This document shows, piece by piece, positions 1,680 through 12,826 of a DNA stretch of 18,659 bases. Below the pieces are notes generated by a model that worked only from the letters and a program-made list of their open reading frames with translations, did no database searches and had not been told where the DNA came from. Source of the DNA: Actinomycetota bacterium (GTDB lineage Bacteria > Actinomycetota > Thermoleophilia > Gaiellales > Gaiellaceae); contig VAYE01000060.1 of NCBI GenBank assembly GCA_005883235.1, forward strand, positions 1 through 18,659. The letters are read 5' to 3'. The stretch's first letter is position 1. Each line of letters opens with the position of its first letter. Both the position numbers and the translations under genes were made by a program.

Positions 1680-3686
<2,007 letters not shown>

Positions 3687-3705
3687 GCGGCCAAGGGTAT
3701 CGACC

Positions 3706-4182
3706 GTGACGACGGACACCTCCGCCCCGCCCTACGGCTCGTACGCGGCGATCATGGGCACGTTCGTCGGCGGCCTCGCCGTCGCCGGGGTGCTGGCCCG
3801 GCTGCTCGACCGCGACCCGCAGGAGCACACGGCGCTCGACCTCGTGGCCCTCGGCGCCGCCACGTTCAAGGCCTCCCGCACGCTCTCGCACGACGAGGTG
3901 ACGAGCTTCATCCGCGACCCGTTCGTCGAGGGGAGCGCCCACGAGGGCGGCGAGCGGCCGGTCGCGAGCGGCGGCATGCAGCAGGCGATCGGCGAGCTCG
4001 TCACGTGCTCGCGGTGCATCGGCACCTGGGTGGCCGCAGCGCTCGCGACGACGCAGATCCTCGCGCCGCGCTTCGGACGGCTCCTGACGTGGACGCTCGG
4101 CGGCGCCGGCGTCAACGACTTCCTCCAGGCCGGCTTCGCCGCGCTCGCCCGCACGTCGAACGAGCTCGAGCAGCGCGTCTAG
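3706..4182 (+). CDS. DUF1360 family small membrane-associated protein
   Basis: This 158-residue protein matches DUF1360, a family of unknown function common in Gram-positive bacteria. The recognisable signature is the Cys pair in TCSRCIGTW near residues 102-110, followed by a hydrophobic Ala-rich segment. An N-terminal hydrophobic stretch (about residues 12-30, with [17 protein letters not shown]) suggests membrane association. The GTG at 3706 is chosen because AAGGG sits 8 nt upstream (3693-3697); the ATG at 3685 lies inside the uvrB start and lacks a ribosome site. The stop TAG at 4180-4182 overlaps the stop of the convergent STAND gene, leaving no room for a terminator. The family is clear from the motif; the function is unknown. 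Confidence 0.8.
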
Positions 4183-7100
4183 CGTCGGAGGCGCTGCTCG
4201 GCGAGCCGGAGGAGGTCTTGGAGGCCGCCGCAGACCTCGCACGTGTAGAGGCGAACGCTGCCGTCGTCGCTCGAGCTCAGGACGAGCCTCCCGTCCGGGC
4301 TGAACGACACGGCGGTCAGCAGCTTCGTGTCGCCGCGAAGATAGAAGAACGGGCGCTCGGCTCCCGTCCGCCAGAGGATCGCGCTGATCGGGCCCGCGGT
4401 CACGATCCACCGCCCGTCCGGGCTGAAGGCGCCTCCCGAGACCGTGCCGAAGTGACCGACCAGCACGTGCAGCCGCTTGCCCGTCCGGGTGTCCCAGGTC
4501 ATCACGTCCCGCTCGAGGCTCGTCGTCAGCAGGGTCCGGCCGTCCGGGCTGAAGACGACGTCGGTGAGACCGCGCCCGGACGCGGGCAGGACGTGACGGA
4601 GCTTGCCTGTCGCCGCGTCCCAGACCCGAGCGGCGCCGTCGCCGCCTGCGGTCGCCACGAGCCTCCCGTCGGGCGAGAACGCGACGCGCGACGCACCCGC
4701 CAGCGCATGGAGCCGCCGGCCGCTCGGGACCGACCAGACGAAGCTCCCTCGAGCGGAAGCCGTGACGACCGACTTCCCGTCCGGGGCGAACGCGGCGTCC
4801 GTGACGCGGCCCGGCGCCTTCATGGTCGCGACCAGACGCCCCGCACCCGCGCTCCAGAGCTGAACCTCGCCGTCGGCCCGCCCGGTCACGACCAACGTCC
4901 CGTCGGGACTGAACCTGGCGACGAGCACAGGCCCACCGCCGCCCAGCGCGCGCTGGAGCGCGCCGCTCGCCGTGCTCCAGATGCGGGCCCGGCCGTCGGC
5001 ACCGGCCGTGACGACGAGCCGGCCGTCCGGGCTGAACCTGGCGTCGTTCACCGGACCGCGATGTCGAAGCGTGTGCAGGAGCCGCCGGCCGCGGACGTCC
5101 CAGATGCGAGCCGTGCCGTCGCGGCCGGCGGAGACGACGAGTCCGCCGCCGGCTCCGAACGACGCCGTGACGGCGCCGCCGTGGTGCGATCCGAGCGGTC
5201 GCAGCTCCTGCTCCACGCGGGCGTCCCAGACTCGCGCGCTGCCGTCGGCGCTTCCGGTGACGAGGGACGCGCCGTCGCGGCTGTACGCGATGGACGTCAC
5301 CCCCGCCCGGTGGCCGACGAGGTTCGCGACGCGCTCCCCGACCTCGACACCCTTCACTTCGGAGACGTGAGCGGTCCGGTCGAGGCTCGCGTCGGCGAGG
5401 AAGCGGCCGTCCGGGCTCCACGCGACGGCCACGACGGGATTCGTGTGGCCCGAGAAGTAGTAGAGCCGGTCGCCGTCGTCGACGGTCCAGACGCGGACGG
5501 CGCCGTCCTCGCCCGCGGTCGCGAGCAGCGTTCCGTCGGGGCTGAACGCCGCGGCGTCGACCTTGCCCCCTCCGTCGTCCAGCACGCGGACGAGGCGGCC
5601 CTCCCGCGGTCGCCACAGGAAAGTGCCGGCGTACGTCGTCTCGGCCAGCAGGCGTCCGTCCGGACTGAACGTCGCCCCCGTCACGCCGATCCGCGGGAGC
5701 ACGTGCAGCAGCCGGCCGCTTCGCGCATCGAAGACCCGCGCACGGTGCCCGGATCTGTCCGCACCGACCGTGGCGACGAGGCGTCCGTCCGGCGAGAACG
5801 CTCCGCCGAAGACGGCGCCCGGATGACGAAGCCGTCGGAGGAGCCGCCCGGTCGAGGTGCGCCAGACGTCGGCGGTCCGACCGGTCGAGGTCGTGAGGAC
5901 GAGGCGTCCGCCCGGGCTGAACGTCGCAGACGTGGCGCTGCCGCGCTGAGGCAGCGTCCGGAGGCGCCTCCCGCTCGCGGCGTCCCACACAGTCGCGGCG
6001 CGGCCGCCGGCCGTCAGGACGAGCTTGCCGTCCGGCGAGAAGGAGGCCGCCTTGACCGGACCGCCCTGGCGAAGCGTTCGCACGAGCCTGCCGTCGCGAG
6101 TCAAGTAGATGCGAACCCGACCGTCTGCGCCCGCGGTCAGCATCCGGCGGGGCCCGTGCGTGGTGTAGGACACGAGTGAGATCGGCCCGAGCGCCGGCAG
6201 CACGCGGCGCAGGCGCGATTCGATCAGCGCCCGGCGGAGCACTCCTTCGGCGCGGAGGCTCGGGTCGGCTCGCGCGGCGTCGACTGCATCGGCGAGAGCC
6301 CGCTGCGGGTCGCGGGAGAGCTCCGCGAATGCCGTCGCCTCGAGCGCCCGAGCACGCGCCTGGTGGGCCTCCGAGCGGGCATGCGAGCGCTGGGTCAGCG
6401 CATAGACGGCGACCGCGGTCATTGCCGCAAGTGCCAGGAGGGTCGCCCCGGTGACGAGCAGCAGGCTCCGCTGCCGCCGCCTTGCCCGCTGCCGCTCCCG
6501 CTCGAGCTGTCGCCGGGCCCGCCACGCGAGCACCGCGTCGGCGAGCACGTCGTGGAAGATCTCGTAGCGCTCGCCCGCGCCGCTGCCGTCGACGGCCCGG
6601 ACGATGCGCTCCCGCCCCAGCGCGCTCAGCACCGGCACGACCTCGTCCTCCGGCACCGACGCGTACTGCGCCAGATCCTGCGGCCGGTGCGCGATCTTCG
6701 AGCCGGACGGCGTGACGAGGTGGTCGAACATCGTCGCGGCGACGTCCTGCTCCTCGGGTCCCAGCCGGCCGAGCGCTTGCTCGAGATGGGCACGCACGAT
6801 CGCCTCGGCGCCTCCCAGCTCGAGCAGCGTCGCGAGCCGCAGCACGGTGGATCCGGCCTCGCGCTCCGCCTCCCATAGCCGCTCCATCACGAGCTGCAGG
6901 TAGGGCGCCTCGACGCGCTGCTCGTCGGCCTGCACCCCGCCCCGGCCCGCCTGACCGACGTCGACCTTGCCTGCGGCGACCTGGTCGAGGACCGCCTCGA
7001 CGAGCTCCGGCTCGACCCGCACAGACTCGCCTGTCAGCTCGTTGTAGCGCTCGACCGGGCCGAGGATCGCGGCGCGGCCACCGCGCCGGTCGAGGTGGTC

Positions 7101-7676
7101 GAGACGGAGGTAGTTCGCGAAGAGGTTGGGAATCCGGCCCTTGAACGCGTCGAGCTTGGCGAGCGTGTCCTCCCGCAGGCCGAGCAGGAAGTTCGCGCGC
7201 AGGCCGGGCTCGCGGATCGCCGTCGCGAGCTCGCCGGCGAAGCCTCCCTGCGCGCCCTCGCTCTCGTGGTAGAGGAAGAGCTCCTCGAACTGGTCGAGGA
7301 TCACGTAGACGTCCCCGCCTACGATCCCAGCCGCGGCGGCGAGCGTCTCCGTAAGGGTGCCGCCGCCCTCGAAGCCGACCGCGTCCTCGATCGCCGCGTG
7401 GAGGCCGCGCTTCGGGTCACCCGCCCACGACGAGAAGACGACGACCGCGGCGTCGTGCACCGCCCGCAGCGAGTGCGCGACCGCAGCGCGAAGGAGCGAG
7501 GTCTTCCCCACGCCGCTCGGCCCGTACAGCACGGTCAGGCGCGAGGCCATCAGGTTCGCCACGACGACGTCGCGCTCGCGCTCGCGCCCGCAGAAGAGGA
7601 GCGCGTCGAGCTCGGTGTCCTGAAAGGCCGCCAGGCCCTTGAAGGGAGTCGGAACCGTTCCGGCCGCGACGCTCAT
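4179..7676 (-). CDS. nSTAND-type NTPase with transmembrane segment and 16 WD40 repeats
   Basis: This 1165-residue protein starts at ATG 7676, overlapping the TGA of the upstream SARP-SIR2 gene by 4 nt (ATGA), so the two are translationally coupled. It opens with the PFKGLAAFQ signature of nSTAND proteins. Walker A GPSGVGKT lies at residues 52-59 and Walker B with VILDQFEELF at 125-134. A helical STAND region follows to about 390, then a basic stretch and one membrane helix at about 404-428. The rest holds 16 WD40-like repeats built on FSPDGRLV and DG-x-x-R-V-W, and ends in a Cys pair (C1146, C1149). STAND NTPases act as switches in which a sensor domain controls ATP-dependent oligomerisation. 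The propellers are the likely sensor and the nucleotide domain should be cytosolic, leaving the propellers outside if the helix spans the membrane. The ligand is unknown. Confidence 0.93.
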   Translation of the reverse strand: MSVAAGTVPTPFKGLAAFQDTELDALLFCGRERERDVVVANLMASRLTVLYGPSGVGKTSLLRAAVAHSLRAVHDAAVVVFSSWAGDPKRGLHAAIEDAVGFEGGGTLTETLAAAAGIVGGDVYVILDQFEELFLYHESEGAQGGFAGELATAIREPGLRANFLLGLREDTLAKLDAFKGRIPNLFANYLRLDHLDRRGGRAAILGPVERYNELTGESVRVEPELVEAVLDQVAAGKVDVGQAGRGGVQADEQRVEAPYLQLVMERLWEAEREAGSTVLRLATLLELGGAEAIVRAHLEQALGRLGPEEQDVAATMFDHLVTPSGSKIAHRPQDLAQYASVPEDEVVPVLSALGRERIVRAVDGSGAGERYEIFHDVLADAVLAWRARRQLERERQRARRRQRSLLLVTGATLLALAAMTAVAVYALTQRSHARSEAHQARARALEATAFAELSRDPQRALADAVDAARADPSLRAEGVLRRALIESRLRRVLPALGPISLVSYTTHGPRRMLTAGADGRVRIYLTRDGRLVRTLRQGGPVKAASFSPDGKLVLTAGGRAATVWDAASGRRLRTLPQRGSATSATFSPGGRLVLTTSTGRTADVWRTSTGRLLRRLRHPGAVFGGAFSPDGRLVATVGADRSGHRARVFDARSGRLLHVLPRIGVTGATFSPDGRLLAETTYAGTFLWRPREGRLVRVLDDGGGKVDAAAFSPDGTLLATAGEDGAVRVWTVDDGDRLYYFSGHTNPVVAVAWSPDGRFLADASLDRTAHVSEVKGVEVGERVANLVGHRAGVTSIAYSRDGASLVTGSADGSARVWDARVEQELRPLGSHHGGAVTASFGAGGGLVVSAGRDGTARIWDVRGRRLLHTLRHRGPVNDARFSPDGRLVVTAGADGRARIWSTASGALQRALGGGGPVLVARFSPDGTLVVTGRADGEVQLWSAGAGRLVATMKAPGRVTDAAFAPDGKSVVTASARGSFVWSVPSGRRLHALAGASRVAFSPDGRLVATAGGDGAARVWDAATGKLRHVLPASGRGLTDVVFSPDGRTLLTTSLERDVMTWDTRTGKRLHVLVGHFGTVSGGAFSPDGRWIVTAGPISAILWRTGAERPFFYLRGDTKLLTAVSFSPDGRLVLSSSDDGSVRLYTCEVCGGLQDLLRLAEQRLRR

Positions 7677-9316
7677 CGGGCACCCGTGGGCTGCGCGGTC
7701 AGGTGGCGGCTCAAGGTCTCCGCGTACTGCTCGAACGGAAGCTCGACGACGTCGACGTCGCGCCGGCGCCAGAACTCGCGCTCGAGCGGCTTCGGCTCCG
7801 GCTGCACGGCCCAGGAGCGGTAGCTCAGCGGCTGGTCGCTCCAGAGGCGGTGCAGGATCACACGCAGGTTCCAGTCGGCCATCGTGTAGCCGAGGAAGAG
7901 GAAGTGGCTGCGGCGGAGCGTCGCCGCGAGCGAGACGGGCACCGCGCCGCCGACCTCGGTCTGCGCGAGGTAGTCGATGTAGTCGTCTTCGGTGACGACG
8001 AAGCTCTCCCACTCGCGCGACGGCGAGCGCTCGACCTGGCCGTGGAGCTTGAGGATGACCGTGCAGCGCTCGAGCGACAGCTCCGTCGCGTACGTGTTCG
8101 GCTGCTCGATCAGCGTGCCGGTTCCGTCGCGGCGGATGTGGCAGAAGCGGCCGCGGTTCCGACCGGCGGCGAGGTAGGACACGACCTCGAACTCCTCCCC
8201 GGCCTCCTGGAAGGCGTGCTCGAGAGCGGTGTCGTAGCCGGTCGTCACGAGCAGCTGGTGCGGAAGACCCCGGTCGCGCAGCAGCGGGGGGAGCGACGCG
8301 AAGAAGCGGTGGATGGGCGTCGGCGGGAGGTCGGCGTCTAGGAGCTCGTGCAGCTCGTCGTAGAGCGGACCGGATCCCTTCATGACCGCGATGTACTGGG
8401 CGACGCGCGGCAGCGTCGCGCTTCCGTCCTCGTCGGGATAGCCGAAGCGCTGGGCGAGCCGACGCGTCAGCTCCGCCACGTCGGCGCCGAGGACGGGAAC
8501 GACTCGCCCCTGGAGGATCGTCCGGGCCACGTCCTCGAAGTGGTCCTGCGCAGGCGTCGCCCGGGCAGGCTCGAGGCCGACCTCCTGACGCAGGATCGCC
8601 CCGTGCAGCTTCTGGAGCCGGGGACTCGGGTCGATGCCGAGCCCCTCGACGAGCACCCGCCTCCCCTCCTGGAAGGCCTCGAGCGCCTCCGCCTGGCGGC
8701 CCGACCGGTACAGCGCGAGCATCAGCTGCTCCCGGAAGCGCTCGCGCAGCGGGTGCTCCTTGACGAGCGCCTCGAGCTCGCCGGCAAGGTCCGCGTGCGC
8801 GCCGGCCTCGAGATCGGCCTCGACGCGCTCCTCGAGCACCGCCAGCCGCACCTCTTCCAGGCGTGAGATCTCGCGCTCCGCGAACGGCTCGAAGGCGAAT
8901 TCCTCGAGCGGCGGCCCGCGCCAGAGCGCGAGCGCCTCGCGGAGCTTCGCGGAGCGGTCGCCCGGCGCAGCTGATCCCGCCTCCTCGACGAGCGCCTGGA
9001 CGCGGTTCACGTCGACCTGGAGCGGGTCGATCCGCAGTAGGTAGCCGGGCGGCTTCGTCACGAGCAGCTCCGGCCCGAGGAGCTTCCGGAGCTGGGAGAC
9101 GAAGTTCTGGAGCGACGTCGGCGCCGTGCGCGGCGGCTGCTCGCCCCAGAGCGCGTCGATCAGCCGGTCGGTCGAGACCGCGCGGCCGGCGTCGACGAGG
9201 AGGAGCGCGAGCAACGCCCGCTGCTTCGGCCCTCCAAGCTGCAGGCTGACGTCGCCCTTGCGCACGTCGAGTGCGCCGAGGAGTCGGAACTCGAAGCGGG
9301 GGTCCGGCCCGGTCAC
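7673..9316 (-). CDS. SARP-type (wHTH-BTAD) regulator fused to a SIR2-like domain
   Basis: This 547-residue protein has two parts. Residues 8-97 form an OmpR/SARP-type winged helix (FRLLGALDV, the GPKQRALLALLL helix, LVTKPPGYLL wing). Residues 100-248 form the helical BTAD repeat domain, ending with GLGIDPSPRLQ. Residues 265-540 are a SIR2-like domain, shown by VVPVLGAD (272-279), LLVTTGYD (355-362), LKLHG (422-426, H425) and FLGYTMADWNLR (474-485). Such SIR2-like domains are NADase effectors in several phage-defence systems. Here the usual GAGxS and TTNYD motifs read GADVA and TTGYD, so NAD cleavage is doubtful. The GTG at 9316 is the only canonical start before the winged helix; an in-frame TAG precedes it at 9326-9328. 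The coupled STAND-WD40 gene downstream suggests one regulated signalling or defence unit. Confidence 0.9.
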   Translation of the reverse strand: MTGPDPRFEFRLLGALDVRKGDVSLQLGGPKQRALLALLLVDAGRAVSTDRLIDALWGEQPPRTAPTSLQNFVSQLRKLLGPELLVTKPPGYLLRIDPLQVDVNRVQALVEEAGSAAPGDRSAKLREALALWRGPPLEEFAFEPFAEREISRLEEVRLAVLEERVEADLEAGAHADLAGELEALVKEHPLRERFREQLMLALYRSGRQAEALEAFQEGRRVLVEGLGIDPSPRLQKLHGAILRQEVGLEPARATPAQDHFEDVARTILQGRVVPVLGADVAELTRRLAQRFGYPDEDGSATLPRVAQYIAVMKGSGPLYDELHELLDADLPPTPIHRFFASLPPLLRDRGLPHQLLVTTGYDTALEHAFQEAGEEFEVVSYLAAGRNRGRFCHIRRDGTGTLIEQPNTYATELSLERCTVILKLHGQVERSPSREWESFVVTEDDYIDYLAQTEVGGAVPVSLAATLRRSHFLFLGYTMADWNLRVILHRLWSDQPLSYRSWAVQPEPKPLEREFWRRRDVDVVELPFEQYAETLSRHLTAQPTGAR

Positions 9317-9324
9317 GAGCCTGT

Positions 9325-9351
9325 TCTATAGCACCCTTTCCGGAGCGTGAA
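9325..9351 (-). promoter_or_regulatory. Candidate promoter for the SARP-SIR2/STAND operon
   Basis: On the minus strand TATAGA (9330-9325) lies 8 nt before the GTG start, so a transcript would begin at or within a base or two of the start codon. TTCACG (9351-9346) could be the -35 element but its 15-nt spacing is short. A purine stretch GGAAAGGG (9341-9334) is 17 nt from the GTG, too far for a normal ribosome site. This fits a leaderless mRNA, which is common in actinobacteria. Confidence 0.35.
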
Positions 9352-9419
9352 CATGGGCCGTTGGCGCCCGGTTAGCCGGCCGTGACCGGCCAATTTGGAC
9401 TCCGATCGACGGTGGCCGC

Positions 9420-10379
9420 ATGGCTACCAACACACACACCTCAGTTCGCGCCGGTGCGGCGAAGCTCGCGTTCGCCACCGCCGTCGCCACCGCGACGTTC
9501 ACCGTTCTCGCATCGGTCGGCGCGCTGAAGGCCGGCCCGGAGCGGGCTTCCGCCACCTCTCCCGCAGCGACCCACACCCAGGCAGCCGGAGGCTTCGGCT
9601 GGCCGGTCAAGCCGTTCAACCGTGAGCACCCCGTGCGGGGCAACTTCGGCGACCCGCGCAGCGTCTTCATGGGCCCTCCGACCCTCGCGACCGTGCTCCA
9701 CGGCACGGGGGGCTTCTCGTTCCACCAGGGCGTCGACGTCTCCGCGCCGAACGGCACGGCGGTCTACCCCGTCGCCGACGGAACGGTCACGCTCGTCACT
9801 CCCGCCTGGGTTCGCGTCGACTCCGGCGGCGGGCGGATGTTCGAGTACTGGCACATCCGCCCTCGCGTCCGAGACTCCGACACGACGAAGCCCTCGGTGC
9901 GGTCGATCTCGCTGCGGCAGACCGACACCGGCCCCGCGCTGCTCCCCGGCTTCGTGCGGGGCAAGGTCGAGATGGTCGTGGACGCGTCCGACATGCCTTC
10001 CAAGGCCGTCAGCGGCGAGTGGCGCAACCTGCCTGTCACCCCCGCGCTCCTCACGTGGGAGATCAGGAGCTGGGCCGGCCGGACCGTCGTGGCCCGGCGC
10101 GCCGCAGTCGACTACCGAACGACGGTGCCTTCGAACTCCGCCTTCTGGACCGTCTATGCCCGGGGCACGTACCAGAACATGTCCGTCTTCGGGCCGCACT
10201 ACTCGTACCTCCAGCGTGGCTGCTTCCTCTTCAAGCTCACGCCGCAGCCGTTCGACACGCATCGCCTGCCCGACGGCGTCTACGACCTCGTCGTGACGGC
10301 GAGCGACATCCGCGGCAACAGCGACTCGTCGAGCCTGCGGTTCACGGTGCACAACCGCAACGGCTGGGTCGGATCGTGA
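9420..10379 (+). CDS. Exported M23-peptidase-like protein with incomplete active site
   Basis: This 319-residue protein has an N-terminal signal or anchor (hydrophobic at about residues 14-38). A LytM/M23-like region follows: GWPVKPF at 60-66, RGNFGDPR at 73-80, the HxxxD zinc motif as HQGVD with H102 and D106, and EYWHI with H145. In M23 endopeptidases a later HxH motif (usually HVHF) completes the zinc site and catalysis. Here the chain passes directly from EYWHIRPRV to an Ig-like segment (about 155-310) and no HxH is present, so peptidase activity is unlikely. It may bind peptidoglycan or be a remnant scaffold. The ATG at 9420 has GGTGG 4 nt upstream. The stop overlaps the GTG start of the PQQ-propeller gene, indicating co-translation. 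Confidence 0.8.
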   Translation: MATNTHTSVRAGAAKLAFATAVATATFTVLASVGALKAGPERASATSPAATHTQAAGGFGWPVKPFNREHPVRGNFGDPRSVFMGPPTLATVLHGTGGFSFHQGVDVSAPNGTAVYPVADGTVTLVTPAWVRVDSGGGRMFEYWHIRPRVRDSDTTKPSVRSISLRQTDTGPALLPGFVRGKVEMVVDASDMPSKAVSGEWRNLPVTPALLTWEIRSWAGRTVVARRAAVDYRTTVPSNSAFWTVYARGTYQNMSVFGPHYSYLQRGCFLFKLTPQPFDTHRLPDGVYDLVVTASDIRGNSDSSSLRFTVHNRNGWVGS

Positions 10380-11626
10380 GGCCGAGGCTCGTGATCCTCG
10401 CGGCGGCGCTCCTCGTGGGTGCCGCCGCCGCGGTCCTGCTCCTTCATGCGCACCAGAGCTCCGCGCCCCGGCCGCGAGCGACCACCACGGCGCCGCCGCG
10501 GGCGACCCGGCCTCCGAAGCCGAGGCCGAGCCGGTTCTCGTGGCCCGCGTACGGGTTCGACGCGGCCCGAACCCACGCCGCGCCGCCGCTTCGGCTGCGG
10601 CCGCCGTTCCGCACGATCTGGACGGTGCACGGGGACTGGAGCCTCATCGAGTTCCCGCCGGTCCTCGAGGACGGGCGACTGTTCGTCGGGACGAACCACG
10701 GACTCGTCCTCGCCGTGCAGGCCCGAACTGGACGGGTCCTCTGGCGCCGCCAGTTCGCCGGCTGCGTGGCGGCGTCTCCCGCGGTGGGCCGGGGCGTCGT
10801 CTACGTCGGCTTCATGGATCCGCCGCCCTGCACCGGCACGGCGCCGAGCTTCCTGGCGGCGCTCGACGCTCGTTCCGGCGGGACACTCTGGCGCTTCCGG
10901 GCCGGCGTCGTCGAGACTCCTCCCCTCCTCGCGGACGGGCTCGTCTACTTCGGGTCCTGGGACCGCCGGGTGTATGCCGTCGACGCTCGAACCGGGCGCC
11001 TCAGGTGGAGCTTCGAGACCGGCGACAAGGTGAAGGGCGGCGTCGCCCTCGCGGGTGGCTCGGTCTTCGCCGGCTCGTACGACGGGCGGCTGTACGCGCT
11101 CGACGCCCGTACCGGCCGGCTCCGCTGGACGGCGGGCGACGGCGGCCTCGGCGGGCTCTACGCAACGCCCTCCGTGGCGAGAGGCCGGGTCTTCGTGGGC
11201 TCGACGAACGGCCGGGTGTACGCGTTCGCCGCGGCGACCGGCCGTCTCCTCTGGTCGAAGCGAACCGGGAGCTACGTCTACTCACCCCTCGCGCTCTCGG
11301 GCGGAAGCGCATTCGTCGGCTCGTACGACCACCGTCTCTACGCGCTCGACCAGGCCACGGGAGCTGCTCGCTGGTCGTTCGACGCCGGAGCCCCGGTCTC
11401 GGGAGCGCCGACCGTGCTCGACGGGCTCGTCTACTTCTCGACGTGCGGATCCTGCTCGCTGGCCGAGTCGAATCCAGGGGCGCGACGGACGTTCGCGCTC
11501 GACGCCCGCACCGGAAAGCTCCAGTGGCGATTCCCGGACGGCGAGTACAGCCCGGTGATCGCCGACCGCGAGCGGGTGTACCTCACCGGCTACACGAGCC
11601 TCTACGGACTCGTCCCGGTTCGCTAG
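10376..11626 (+). CDS. Membrane-anchored PQQ-type beta-propeller protein (BamB-like fold)
   Basis: This 416-residue protein starts at GTG 10376, sharing GTGA with the stop of the upstream M23-like gene. Residues 5-24 are a strongly hydrophobic signal anchor without a lipobox Cys, followed by a Pro/Arg/Thr-rich linker to about residue 55. The rest is a run of about seven PQQ-like repeats with the pattern YVG or FAGS, then VYALDARTGRLRW. The repeat marks the eight-bladed fold of BamB and quinoprotein dehydrogenases. Nothing here points to bound PQQ or a dehydrogenase site, so a structural or ligand-binding role outside the membrane is more likely. Two Cys in a CGSC motif lie near the last blade. 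A partnership with the M23-like protein at the cell wall is inference from the operon. It converges on the DUF4097 gene with only 11 nt between. Confidence 0.85.
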   Translation: MRPRLVILAAALLVGAAAAVLLLHAHQSSAPRPRATTTAPPRATRPPKPRPSRFSWPAYGFDAARTHAAPPLRLRPPFRTIWTVHGDWSLIEFPPVLEDGRLFVGTNHGLVLAVQARTGRVLWRRQFAGCVAASPAVGRGVVYVGFMDPPPCTGTAPSFLAALDARSGGTLWRFRAGVVETPPLLADGLVYFGSWDRRVYAVDARTGRLRWSFETGDKVKGGVALAGGSVFAGSYDGRLYALDARTGRLRWTAGDGGLGGLYATPSVARGRVFVGSTNGRVYAFAAATGRLLWSKRTGSYVYSPLALSGGSAFVGSYDHRLYALDQATGAARWSFDAGAPVSGAPTVLDGLVYFSTCGSCSLAESNPGARRTFALDARTGKLQWRFPDGEYSPVIADRERVYLTGYTSLYGLVPVR

Positions 11627-11637
11627 ACGGGCTCGAT

Positions 11638-12370: not shown

Positions 12371-12826
12371 TCAGCTGCGACCGAAGCCCCGCAGACGGTT
12401 GCCCGGGCCTCGGGTCGCGGTTGTGGTGACGGAGACGCTGCGCCCGAGCGCGCGGACGAGCCACGTGTTGAGGGACACGCCCTCGCGTGCGGCGGCCGCC
12501 TCGAGACTCGACTTCAGGCTCTCCGGGAGCCTCAGCGTGATGCGCGCGGACGCGCCGTCGTCGGCGGGAGCCGGCGTCGGCGCGCCCTCCTCGACGTACA
12601 CGAGCGACGGGTCCTGCCCCGCGAGCCGAACCTCGATTCGACCCGAGCTGAGCTGCTCGTTCAGCTCGAGGGCGGCCTCGCCGAGCGCGTCGAGGAGCCG
12701 AAGGCCGGCCGAGGCGCGGATCGCCGCGCTCAGGCGGCGGGCGGCCTCGGCGGTCGCGTCGTCGCCGACAGCGGCGATGGCGGCGAGATCGGCCTCGAGC
12801 GCCTCGACGAAGCGTGCCAGCTCCAT
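12371..12826 (-). CDS. Ribbon-helix-helix (HicB/CopG-like) DNA-binding protein
   Basis: This 151-residue protein has an N-terminal helical region (residues 1-60, Ala/Leu/Glu-rich), a short beta segment (GRIEVRLAG, 62-70), an acidic Ala/Pro linker and a ribbon-helix-helix domain at about 94-131 (ARITLRLPESLKSSLEAAA, then GVSLNTWLVRAL). A basic tail (RGPGNRLRGFGRS) follows. RHH proteins bind DNA as dimers through the beta ribbon, here RITLRL. HicB and CopG members are antitoxins or repressors, but no HicA-like toxin is adjacent; the neighbour is DUF4097. ATG 12826 lies exactly where a leaderless transcript would begin. The paired TGAnGTCA elements at the promoter are a plausible autoregulatory operator. 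The target in the cell is unknown, but regulation of the DUF4097 gene is the simplest proposal. Confidence 0.85.
   Translation of the reverse strand: MELARFVEALEADLAAIAAVGDDATAEAARRLSAAIRASAGLRLLDALGEAALELNEQLSSGRIEVRLAGQDPSLVYVEEGAPTPAPADDGASARITLRLPESLKSSLEAAAAREGVSLNTWLVRALGRSVSVTTTATRGPGNRLRGFGRS

Follow-up and report, generated by a model that had tools for sequence, protein, structure and literature searches.

Two adjoining genes in the window, the whole 18,659-nucleotide stretch of DNA analysed here, encode a SARP-BTAD-SIR2 regulator and an nSTAND1-WD40 protein with one predicted membrane helix. On balance, and with a confidence only somewhat above even, we read this pair as a receptor-gated transcription switch derived from a SIR2-plus-nSTAND1-WD40 effector-receptor pair. 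An earlier note on the same DNA had proposed an NLR-like signalling or defence unit. Signalling of this kind through transcription is supported, both in the coupling of the two genes and in their transcriptional output; the NAD-consuming defence and the defence island that formed the other part of that proposal are not supported. The earlier note was silent on two features, the substituted active-site motifs of the SIR2 domain and the repeats upstream of the first gene.

The gene pair and its conservation

The first gene (7673..9316, minus strand) encodes 547 residues from a GTG start, a call based on Pfam and codon-position GC. Pfam recognizes Trans_reg_C, BTAD (9.5e-44) and SIR2_2 (4.4e-21) in its product. 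The SARP half (8591..9232, minus strand) has the arrangement typical of the SARP family, an OmpR-type winged helix (Trans_reg_C) followed by BTAD, and its fold matches to AfsR and EmbR mark it as AfsR-like. The SIR2-fold domain that follows (7694..8554, minus strand) is predicted to be non-canonical as an NADase. The second gene (4179..7676, minus strand), which encodes 1165 residues from an ATG start, specifies a receptor-like nSTAND1-TM-WD40 protein with Pfam matches to nSTAND1 (1.4e-42) and WD40 (4.4e-95). Its mechanical open reading frame, 4179-8012, begins too far upstream; translation likely starts from the ATG at 7676, and at the junction of the two genes (..CCCGATGAGC..) this ATG and a TGA share bases as ATGA. 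Pfam, the junction sequence and codon-position GC thus confirm what had been noted of two genes joined by an ATGA overlap, one SARP-BTAD-SIR2 and one nSTAND-WD40.

A search with the first protein returned 7927 matches, and the nearest relative among the matches listed is 99% identical. The best 120 of the 7927 are all annotated with BTAD, SIR2_2 and Trans_reg_C, and these relatives, together with codon-position GC values of 0.77/0.45/0.93 and 0.76/0.55/0.90 for the two genes, exclude chance reading frames. Among 299 genomes from the class of one relative, a SARP-SIR2 match at E <= 1e-100 was found in 19, with one full match each; 9 of these 19 genomes were seeds already found earlier. An nSTAND1 gene lies directly downstream in 16 of the 19; the other three stop at a contig edge. 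By open reading frame coordinates, 4-bp overlaps recur in seven further loci (L002, L004, L005, L006, L060, L065 and L067), while in the other fused loci of this comparison one gene or both were cut, missed or of doubtful start. A mobile-element or plasmid origin was considered and rejected, since none of 270 matching plasmid records and none of 4 matching phage records has one place covering 80% of the query.

The second protein possesses each of the features expected of the STAND family: an nSTAND1 domain, a Walker A motif (GPSGVGKT; 7500..7523, minus strand), a Walker B motif (VYVILDQFEELF) and a repeat sensor, here a WD40 propeller region with approximate Pfam limits of 4215..6190 on the minus strand. 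All 16 fused loci compared retain an intact Walker A; Walker B matches the pattern in 12 of them and is readable by eye in the remaining 4. Between the NTPase and the propellers lies a single predicted transmembrane helix (6405..6461, minus strand), assigned from hydropathy and flanking charge only; it is the one hydrophobic helix there, with a Kyte-Doolittle mean of 2.20 over 19 residues. The STAND switch, WD40 sensor, Walker motifs and membrane helix described previously are accordingly borne out by Pfam, motifs and hydropathy. One strongly hydrophobic helix after the NTPase occurs in all 14 fused-type STAND proteins counted, the window's included; three further ones were too short for the count. 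Positive charge within 15 residues of the helix is greater on the NTPase flank than on the WD40 flank in 11 of the 14, equal in one and less in two, and because the bias is incomplete in this way, a topology with the NTPase inside and the WD40 part outside is likely rather than certain.

Some relatives deviate from this layout. For instance, an N-terminal class III cyclase domain occurs in certain SARP-SIR2 relatives, detected by Pfam as Guanylate_cyc in P0006 and P0106 and read by eye in the frames L044/L061 (L061:7929-10466) and L039/L064 (L064 ~2481-3213); the window's protein has no cyclase domain. Genome G002 encodes, alongside a SARP-SIR2/STAND pair, a single-chain BTAD-nSTAND1-WD40 protein (L049:1196-5575, an open frame of 1459 residues). 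Genome G262 contains a second, less similar SIR2 copy; its copies L045 and L091 carry different substitutions, Asp/Arg and His/His, at the two catalytic positions. The 5' end of L091 is cut by the end of its contig, for which reason this sequence was left out of the stand-alone group described below.

The substituted SIR2 domain and its stand-alone relatives

In fold, the SIR2 half resembles ThsA, DSR2, KomC and Avs5, and the PADLOC profile for ThsA partially matches residues 416-491 of the first protein. The authors of the Avs5 study call the GAGxS and TTNxD motifs characteristic of all known sirtuins, describe GAGxS as contacting NAD, and report that the N110A change abolishes Avs5 immunity (PMC12931631). 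Both motifs are substituted in the window. The phosphate loop reads GADVA in place of GAGxS (8480..8488, minus strand, for the GAD that stands where stand-alone relatives have GAG), and TTGYD replaces TTNYD (8231..8245, minus strand), so that Gly360 occupies the catalytic Asn position; TTGYD aligns to TTNYD of DSR2 and KomC within low-scoring stretches. The HG motif of SIR2 NADase effectors, which is NG in Avs5, is present as His425-Gly426.

These substitutions extend well beyond the window. Among protein rows that are related by kinship, such that counts are not independent, and that were grouped as fused or stand-alone by the search that found each row, Ser or Gly takes the place of the catalytic Asn in 234 of 243 on the SARP-fused side; of 121 stand-alone relatives, 120 have the Asn. 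The third position of GAG is Asp or Glu (GAD/GAE) in 219 of 243 fused-side sequences and Gly in 116 of 121 stand-alone ones. Both catalytic residues, Asn and His, are present in 119 of the 121 stand-alone homologs. On the fused side they occur together in 2 of 174 sequences whose SIR2 part is preceded by 150 residues or more, and in 3 of 69 where fewer precede it. Because GAGxS and TTNxD, the two defining motifs tested, are both replaced in the window protein and in most fused-side relatives, the SIR2 domain is, by its motifs, placed outside the SIR2 NADase effectors, and the suggestion that it acts as one is not sustained.

On the fused side, His425 is kept in 234 of 243 sequences, Asp362 in 239 of 243, and Glu443 and Asp444 in all 243, a near-invariance that suggests the pocket is still used for something. 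The domain as a whole is strongly conserved, with a mean column identity of 64% over 13 divergent rows, and on this ground we rejected a decaying remnant. Loss of the catalytic residues has not reached every member and cannot clearly be called irreversible, since the deep-branching fused members L026 and L044 keep both Asn and His, and P0170, P0177 and P0191, nested in the fused clade, combine a catalytic Asn with a substituted loop. In one subclade (L040-L043 and L046) the His is lost as well, and Gln stands in its place. P0177 has no SARP domain listed.

SIR2 genes of this type appear to be rare in the phylum sample, given that a profile search of 396 genomes gave SIR2 profile matches in 3, the same 3 that match the stand-alone protein. 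In one of these three (G326, L058/L059), a stand-alone SIR2 gene is followed by an nSTAND1 gene, and a second such pair (G144, L090) comes from the class sample. WD40 repeats in both pairs were read by eye; the STAND partner of L059 has no strong membrane helix and that of L090 has one. As both readable stand-alone cases show it, the order of SIR2 then nSTAND1 exists without a SARP part. A tree built from 64 selected rows unites the fused side in one clade (100/100). This tree was rooted on the stand-alone group, and it is for this reason that the direction of change, from stand-alone to fused, is something we infer; the canonical motifs of the stand-alone group and of the fused member L044 support it. 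With two stand-alone relatives also preceding nSTAND1 and the SARP side united in one clade, an effector-receptor pair has probably been turned into a transcription switch.

Upstream repeats, the divergent gene and genomic setting

Ahead of the first gene lies a putative operator (9358..9397, minus strand), composed of four imperfect repeats of 11-bp period with YNAACGG-like heptamers at 9390-9397, 9380-9386, 9369-9375 and 9358-9364. An extended -10-like box, TGCTATAGAAC (9323..9333, minus strand), follows 24 bp from the last repeat. Since this box ends 6 bp ahead of the GTG start codon in the window, the transcript of the first gene is probably leaderless. When 17 intergenic regions were pooled, sequences that are related by kinship and thus not independent counts, identity at lag 11 reached z = 8.8 and at lag 22 z = 5.4 relative to dinucleotide shuffles; none of the other lags among the 27 from 4 to 30 rose above z 4. 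Leaving out three close relatives, lag 11 comes first in 5 of 14 regions, and its median rank is 2 of 26. Taken alone, the window places it 4th among 26 lags; of the two stretches upstream of stand-alone genes that served as controls, the one before L090 has lag 11 first.

SARP targets are described as carrying repeats at 11 or 22 bp, the last of them 8 bp from the -10 element (PMC10936776). Direct repeats of the 11/22-bp type are present across our loci, weakly in the window alone; in place of the 8-bp distance from the 3' repeat, 24-25 bp precede the TGYTA box in nine loci. The SARP regulator PimR is reported to bind three heptamers with 4-bp spacers and without overlap of the -35 box (PMC5930380). 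A pattern of a heptamer-like word followed by TGYTA at 20-28 bp, designed after the sequences had been seen, was run on 19 sequences totalling 273,659 bases. It matched once in each of nine sequences and in none of the other ten. All nine matches sit ahead of SARP-SIR2, with a spacing of 24 bp in eight and 25 bp in one, and L002 and L004 are near copies; fixed repeat spacing is thereby seen in about half of the loci. With 21 matches in the window where 16.5 would be expected, a two-repeat pattern shows no enrichment. A strict triple-repeat pattern, with at most one mismatch, gave just 7 matches in 6 of 19 genomes, five of them at the SARP-SIR2 locus, against 2 for the reversed control, and we rejected a wide regulon on this count, as far as strict sites are concerned. 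The AfsR-like SARP half and the repeats upstream across loci do support the transcriptional output that had been proposed for the pair. Judged by domains and repeats, with one promoter feature differing, the first protein belongs to the SARP family, and the second, by its domains, to the STAND family.

Across the intergenic region lies a divergent gene (9420..10379, plus strand) for an exported-looking, M23-peptidase-like protein (Pfam 25.3 bits, cut-off 28.7), which is a probable local target. By Pfam, the divergent neighbour in 18 loci, the window included, is a DMFA2_C protein in 11 and M23-like in 7, where three of the M23-like matches, the window's among them, fall below the cut-off. Two further loci, read by eye, resemble one type each, bringing M23 or DMFA2_C to 20 of 20. 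All 20 neighbours have a hydrophobic N-terminal stretch by reading. The divergent proteins often share N-terminal residues (MATN/MATT and similar) and upstream repeats, yet their bodies are of one type or the other, M23-like or DMFA2_C, which looks like a swap of the coding body downstream of a constant 5' end.

The remaining neighbours in the window are mostly core genes: uvrB (1680-3719), a DUF1360 gene (3685-4182), coaE, rpsA, polA and a lytic-transglycosylase-like gene. In relatives, uvrB shares a stretch with the pair in L006, L009 and L061; rpsA and the transglycosylase gene lie near it in L003, L007 and L009; rpsA and polA do so in L065, as does polA in L007; and an M23 gene is nearby in L003, L006-L009 and L063-L065. 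None of these neighbours is found within the available stretches of L001, L002, L004, L005, L060, L066 and L067. Because they are kept in some relatives and absent from others, only part of the lineage shares this genomic place. The partial retention of an rpsA - transglycosylase - M23 - uvrB neighbourhood in several relatives approaches the housekeeping context that the earlier note named as evidence against a defence unit. Nor is a defence island supported: PADLOC, applied to 10 window neighbours, matches only uvrB and polA, which we take as generic helicase and polymerase similarity, and finds no defence genes. Between the M23-like and DUF4097 genes, positions 10380-11637 hold no clear gene by codon-position GC, and at 12371-12826 a protein with a C-terminal HicB-family match adjoins the DUF4097 gene.

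A proposed switch, its rivals and known systems

In the switch we propose for this lineage of soil actinobacteria, known from uncultured members, a SARP DNA-binding and activation module would have been joined, most simply once, to the N-terminus of a SIR2 partner. With or after this fusion, the catalytic Asn and the glycine loop would have been lost in most of the lineage, leaving no canonical NADase, while the SIR2 domain would have stayed folded and been conserved as a coupling part, probably as a surface for STAND docking or oligomerisation. The STAND-WD40 protein, anchored by its one membrane helix and with its propellers probably outside, would sense a signal, and an ATP-driven STAND rearrangement would be relayed via the SIR2 domain to the SARP part. 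The latter would bind the 11-bp-period repeats between the divergent genes and regulate both the operon that encodes it and an M23 or DMFA2_C protein exported to the cell surface. Contact between the two proteins, gating, targets and the sign of regulation are all points that we infer. The STAND and SARP functions of AfsR are here split over two proteins with SIR2 between them. Read most simply, the SIR2 domain, formerly the effector partner of the receptor, would now serve as a coupling surface. A bolder formulation, in which an NLR-type immune pair has been institutionalised as a transmembrane switch, its NADase effector has become, through a single fusion to SARP, a pseudo-sirtuin adaptor that relays the STAND-WD40 state to DNA, and the locus under control swaps its exported M23 or DMFA2_C proteins behind a conserved operator, is tentative, and we would place it slightly short of an even prospect. 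An immune-type domain has been described as "institutionalized" for a role in transcription in the case of animal NCOA6 (PMC8195603). Inactive enzyme domains have been proposed as decoys in other bacterial conflict systems (PMC7159879), and by analogy a decoy role for the substituted SIR2 domain is a further possibility.

If the switch reading is true, a single bacterial phylum contains both an immune-type effector-receptor pair and what is likely the regulatory system descended from it, in a case that is traceable: the fused side can be placed on a tree and catalytic losses counted. SIR2 domains beside STAND proteins could then act as signal adaptors, and caution would be in order when annotating SIR2-STAND pairs as defence systems. 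STAND-to-SARP signalling, moreover, becomes testable in two separable proteins with a candidate operator.

The same genes could be viewed as an active NADase defence unit, in which WD40-STAND detects an invader, SIR2 depletes NAD and SARP adds regulation. The closest folds (ThsA, DSR2, KomC and Avs5), the partial ThsA profile match, the retained His425, Asp362 and acidic motif, and the Asn and His of the deep-branching L026 and L044 would all be at home in such a unit. Exchange of Asn for Ser or Gly (234 of 243) and of GAG for GAD or GAE (219 of 243) would not, given that N110A abolishes immunity in Avs5 (PMC12931631); nor would the occurrence of one full match per genome, in a partly conserved neighbourhood and without defence genes in the window. 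The replaced Asn and glycine loop, together with the genomic surroundings, led us to reject NADase defence, which we regard as improbable.

Another proposal is that the SIR2 pocket has become a ligand sensor, binding NAD, ADP-ribose or another nucleotide uncleaved to tune SARP, with STAND as a second input. The near-invariance of His425, Asp362, Glu443 and Asp444 leaves room for a remaining ligand-binding role, and nucleotide signals are plausible because some relatives add a class III cyclase domain. Such a sensor is harder to reconcile with an acidic residue in place of a glycine in the NAD-contacting GAGxS motif (PMC12931631) and with the subclade that has also lost the His to Gln, and we consider it unlikely. 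It is also conceivable that the first protein is an ordinary SARP autoregulator, with SIR2 passive and the STAND gene simply co-transcribed without functional gating. This would account for the constant spacing, in nine loci, between the repeats and the promoter-like box of SARP-SIR2 and for the finding that five of the seven strict-pattern matches across 19 genomes lie at this locus. It is at odds, however, with the constant STAND adjacency, the 4-bp overlaps in seven further loci and the intact NTPase motifs, as well as with the existence of SIR2-nSTAND1 pairing without SARP and of a single-chain SARP-nSTAND1-WD40 protein in a relative's genome; we give it very little credence.

Among known systems, Thoeris combines ThsA, which has a SLOG sensor domain, with a TIR partner, ThsB. 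Neither is found here: the first protein has only Trans_reg_C, BTAD and SIR2_2 in Pfam (E <= 0.001), and no TIR domain occurs in the window proteins scanned. Avs5 (AVAST type 5, SIR2-STAND), ThsA, DSR2 and KomC are described as NADases with GAGxS and TTNxD (PMC12931631), whereas the window protein has both motifs substituted and a DNA-binding activator attached. The nearest SIR2 homologs outside the fused side, the stand-alone pairs L059 and L090, share the gene order of the window, but lack SARP and have canonical GAG and TTN motifs. For the SARP-SIR2 fusion or the gene pair itself, we found no description in the titles and abstract openings of the openly licensed literature, a body of work that mostly does not take in subscription papers. 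The SAMD9 family (AlbA - variant Sir2-like - STAND-like NTPase), reported also from actinomycetes, similarly brings together a nucleic-acid-binding domain, a variant SIR2 and a STAND module (PMC5445408); it differs in having another nucleic-acid-binding domain and a single chain, and the likeness drawn here is one of domain composition.

The single-chain L049 of G002 resembles the window pair in having BTAD, nSTAND1 and WD40 in order, but is one gene, with no SIR2 family among the best 25 of its 47 Pfam matches. AfsR is a large SARP with SARP, NOD and TPR in one chain, and its NOD/TPR part is described as inhibiting SARP until ATP binding relieves this restraint (PMC10936776). In the window the corresponding system comprises two chains, with an nSTAND1-WD40 protein that has a membrane helix and a SIR2 domain set between the SARP and STAND functions. 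By analogy, the pair may work like a split AfsR equipped with an immune-type receptor.
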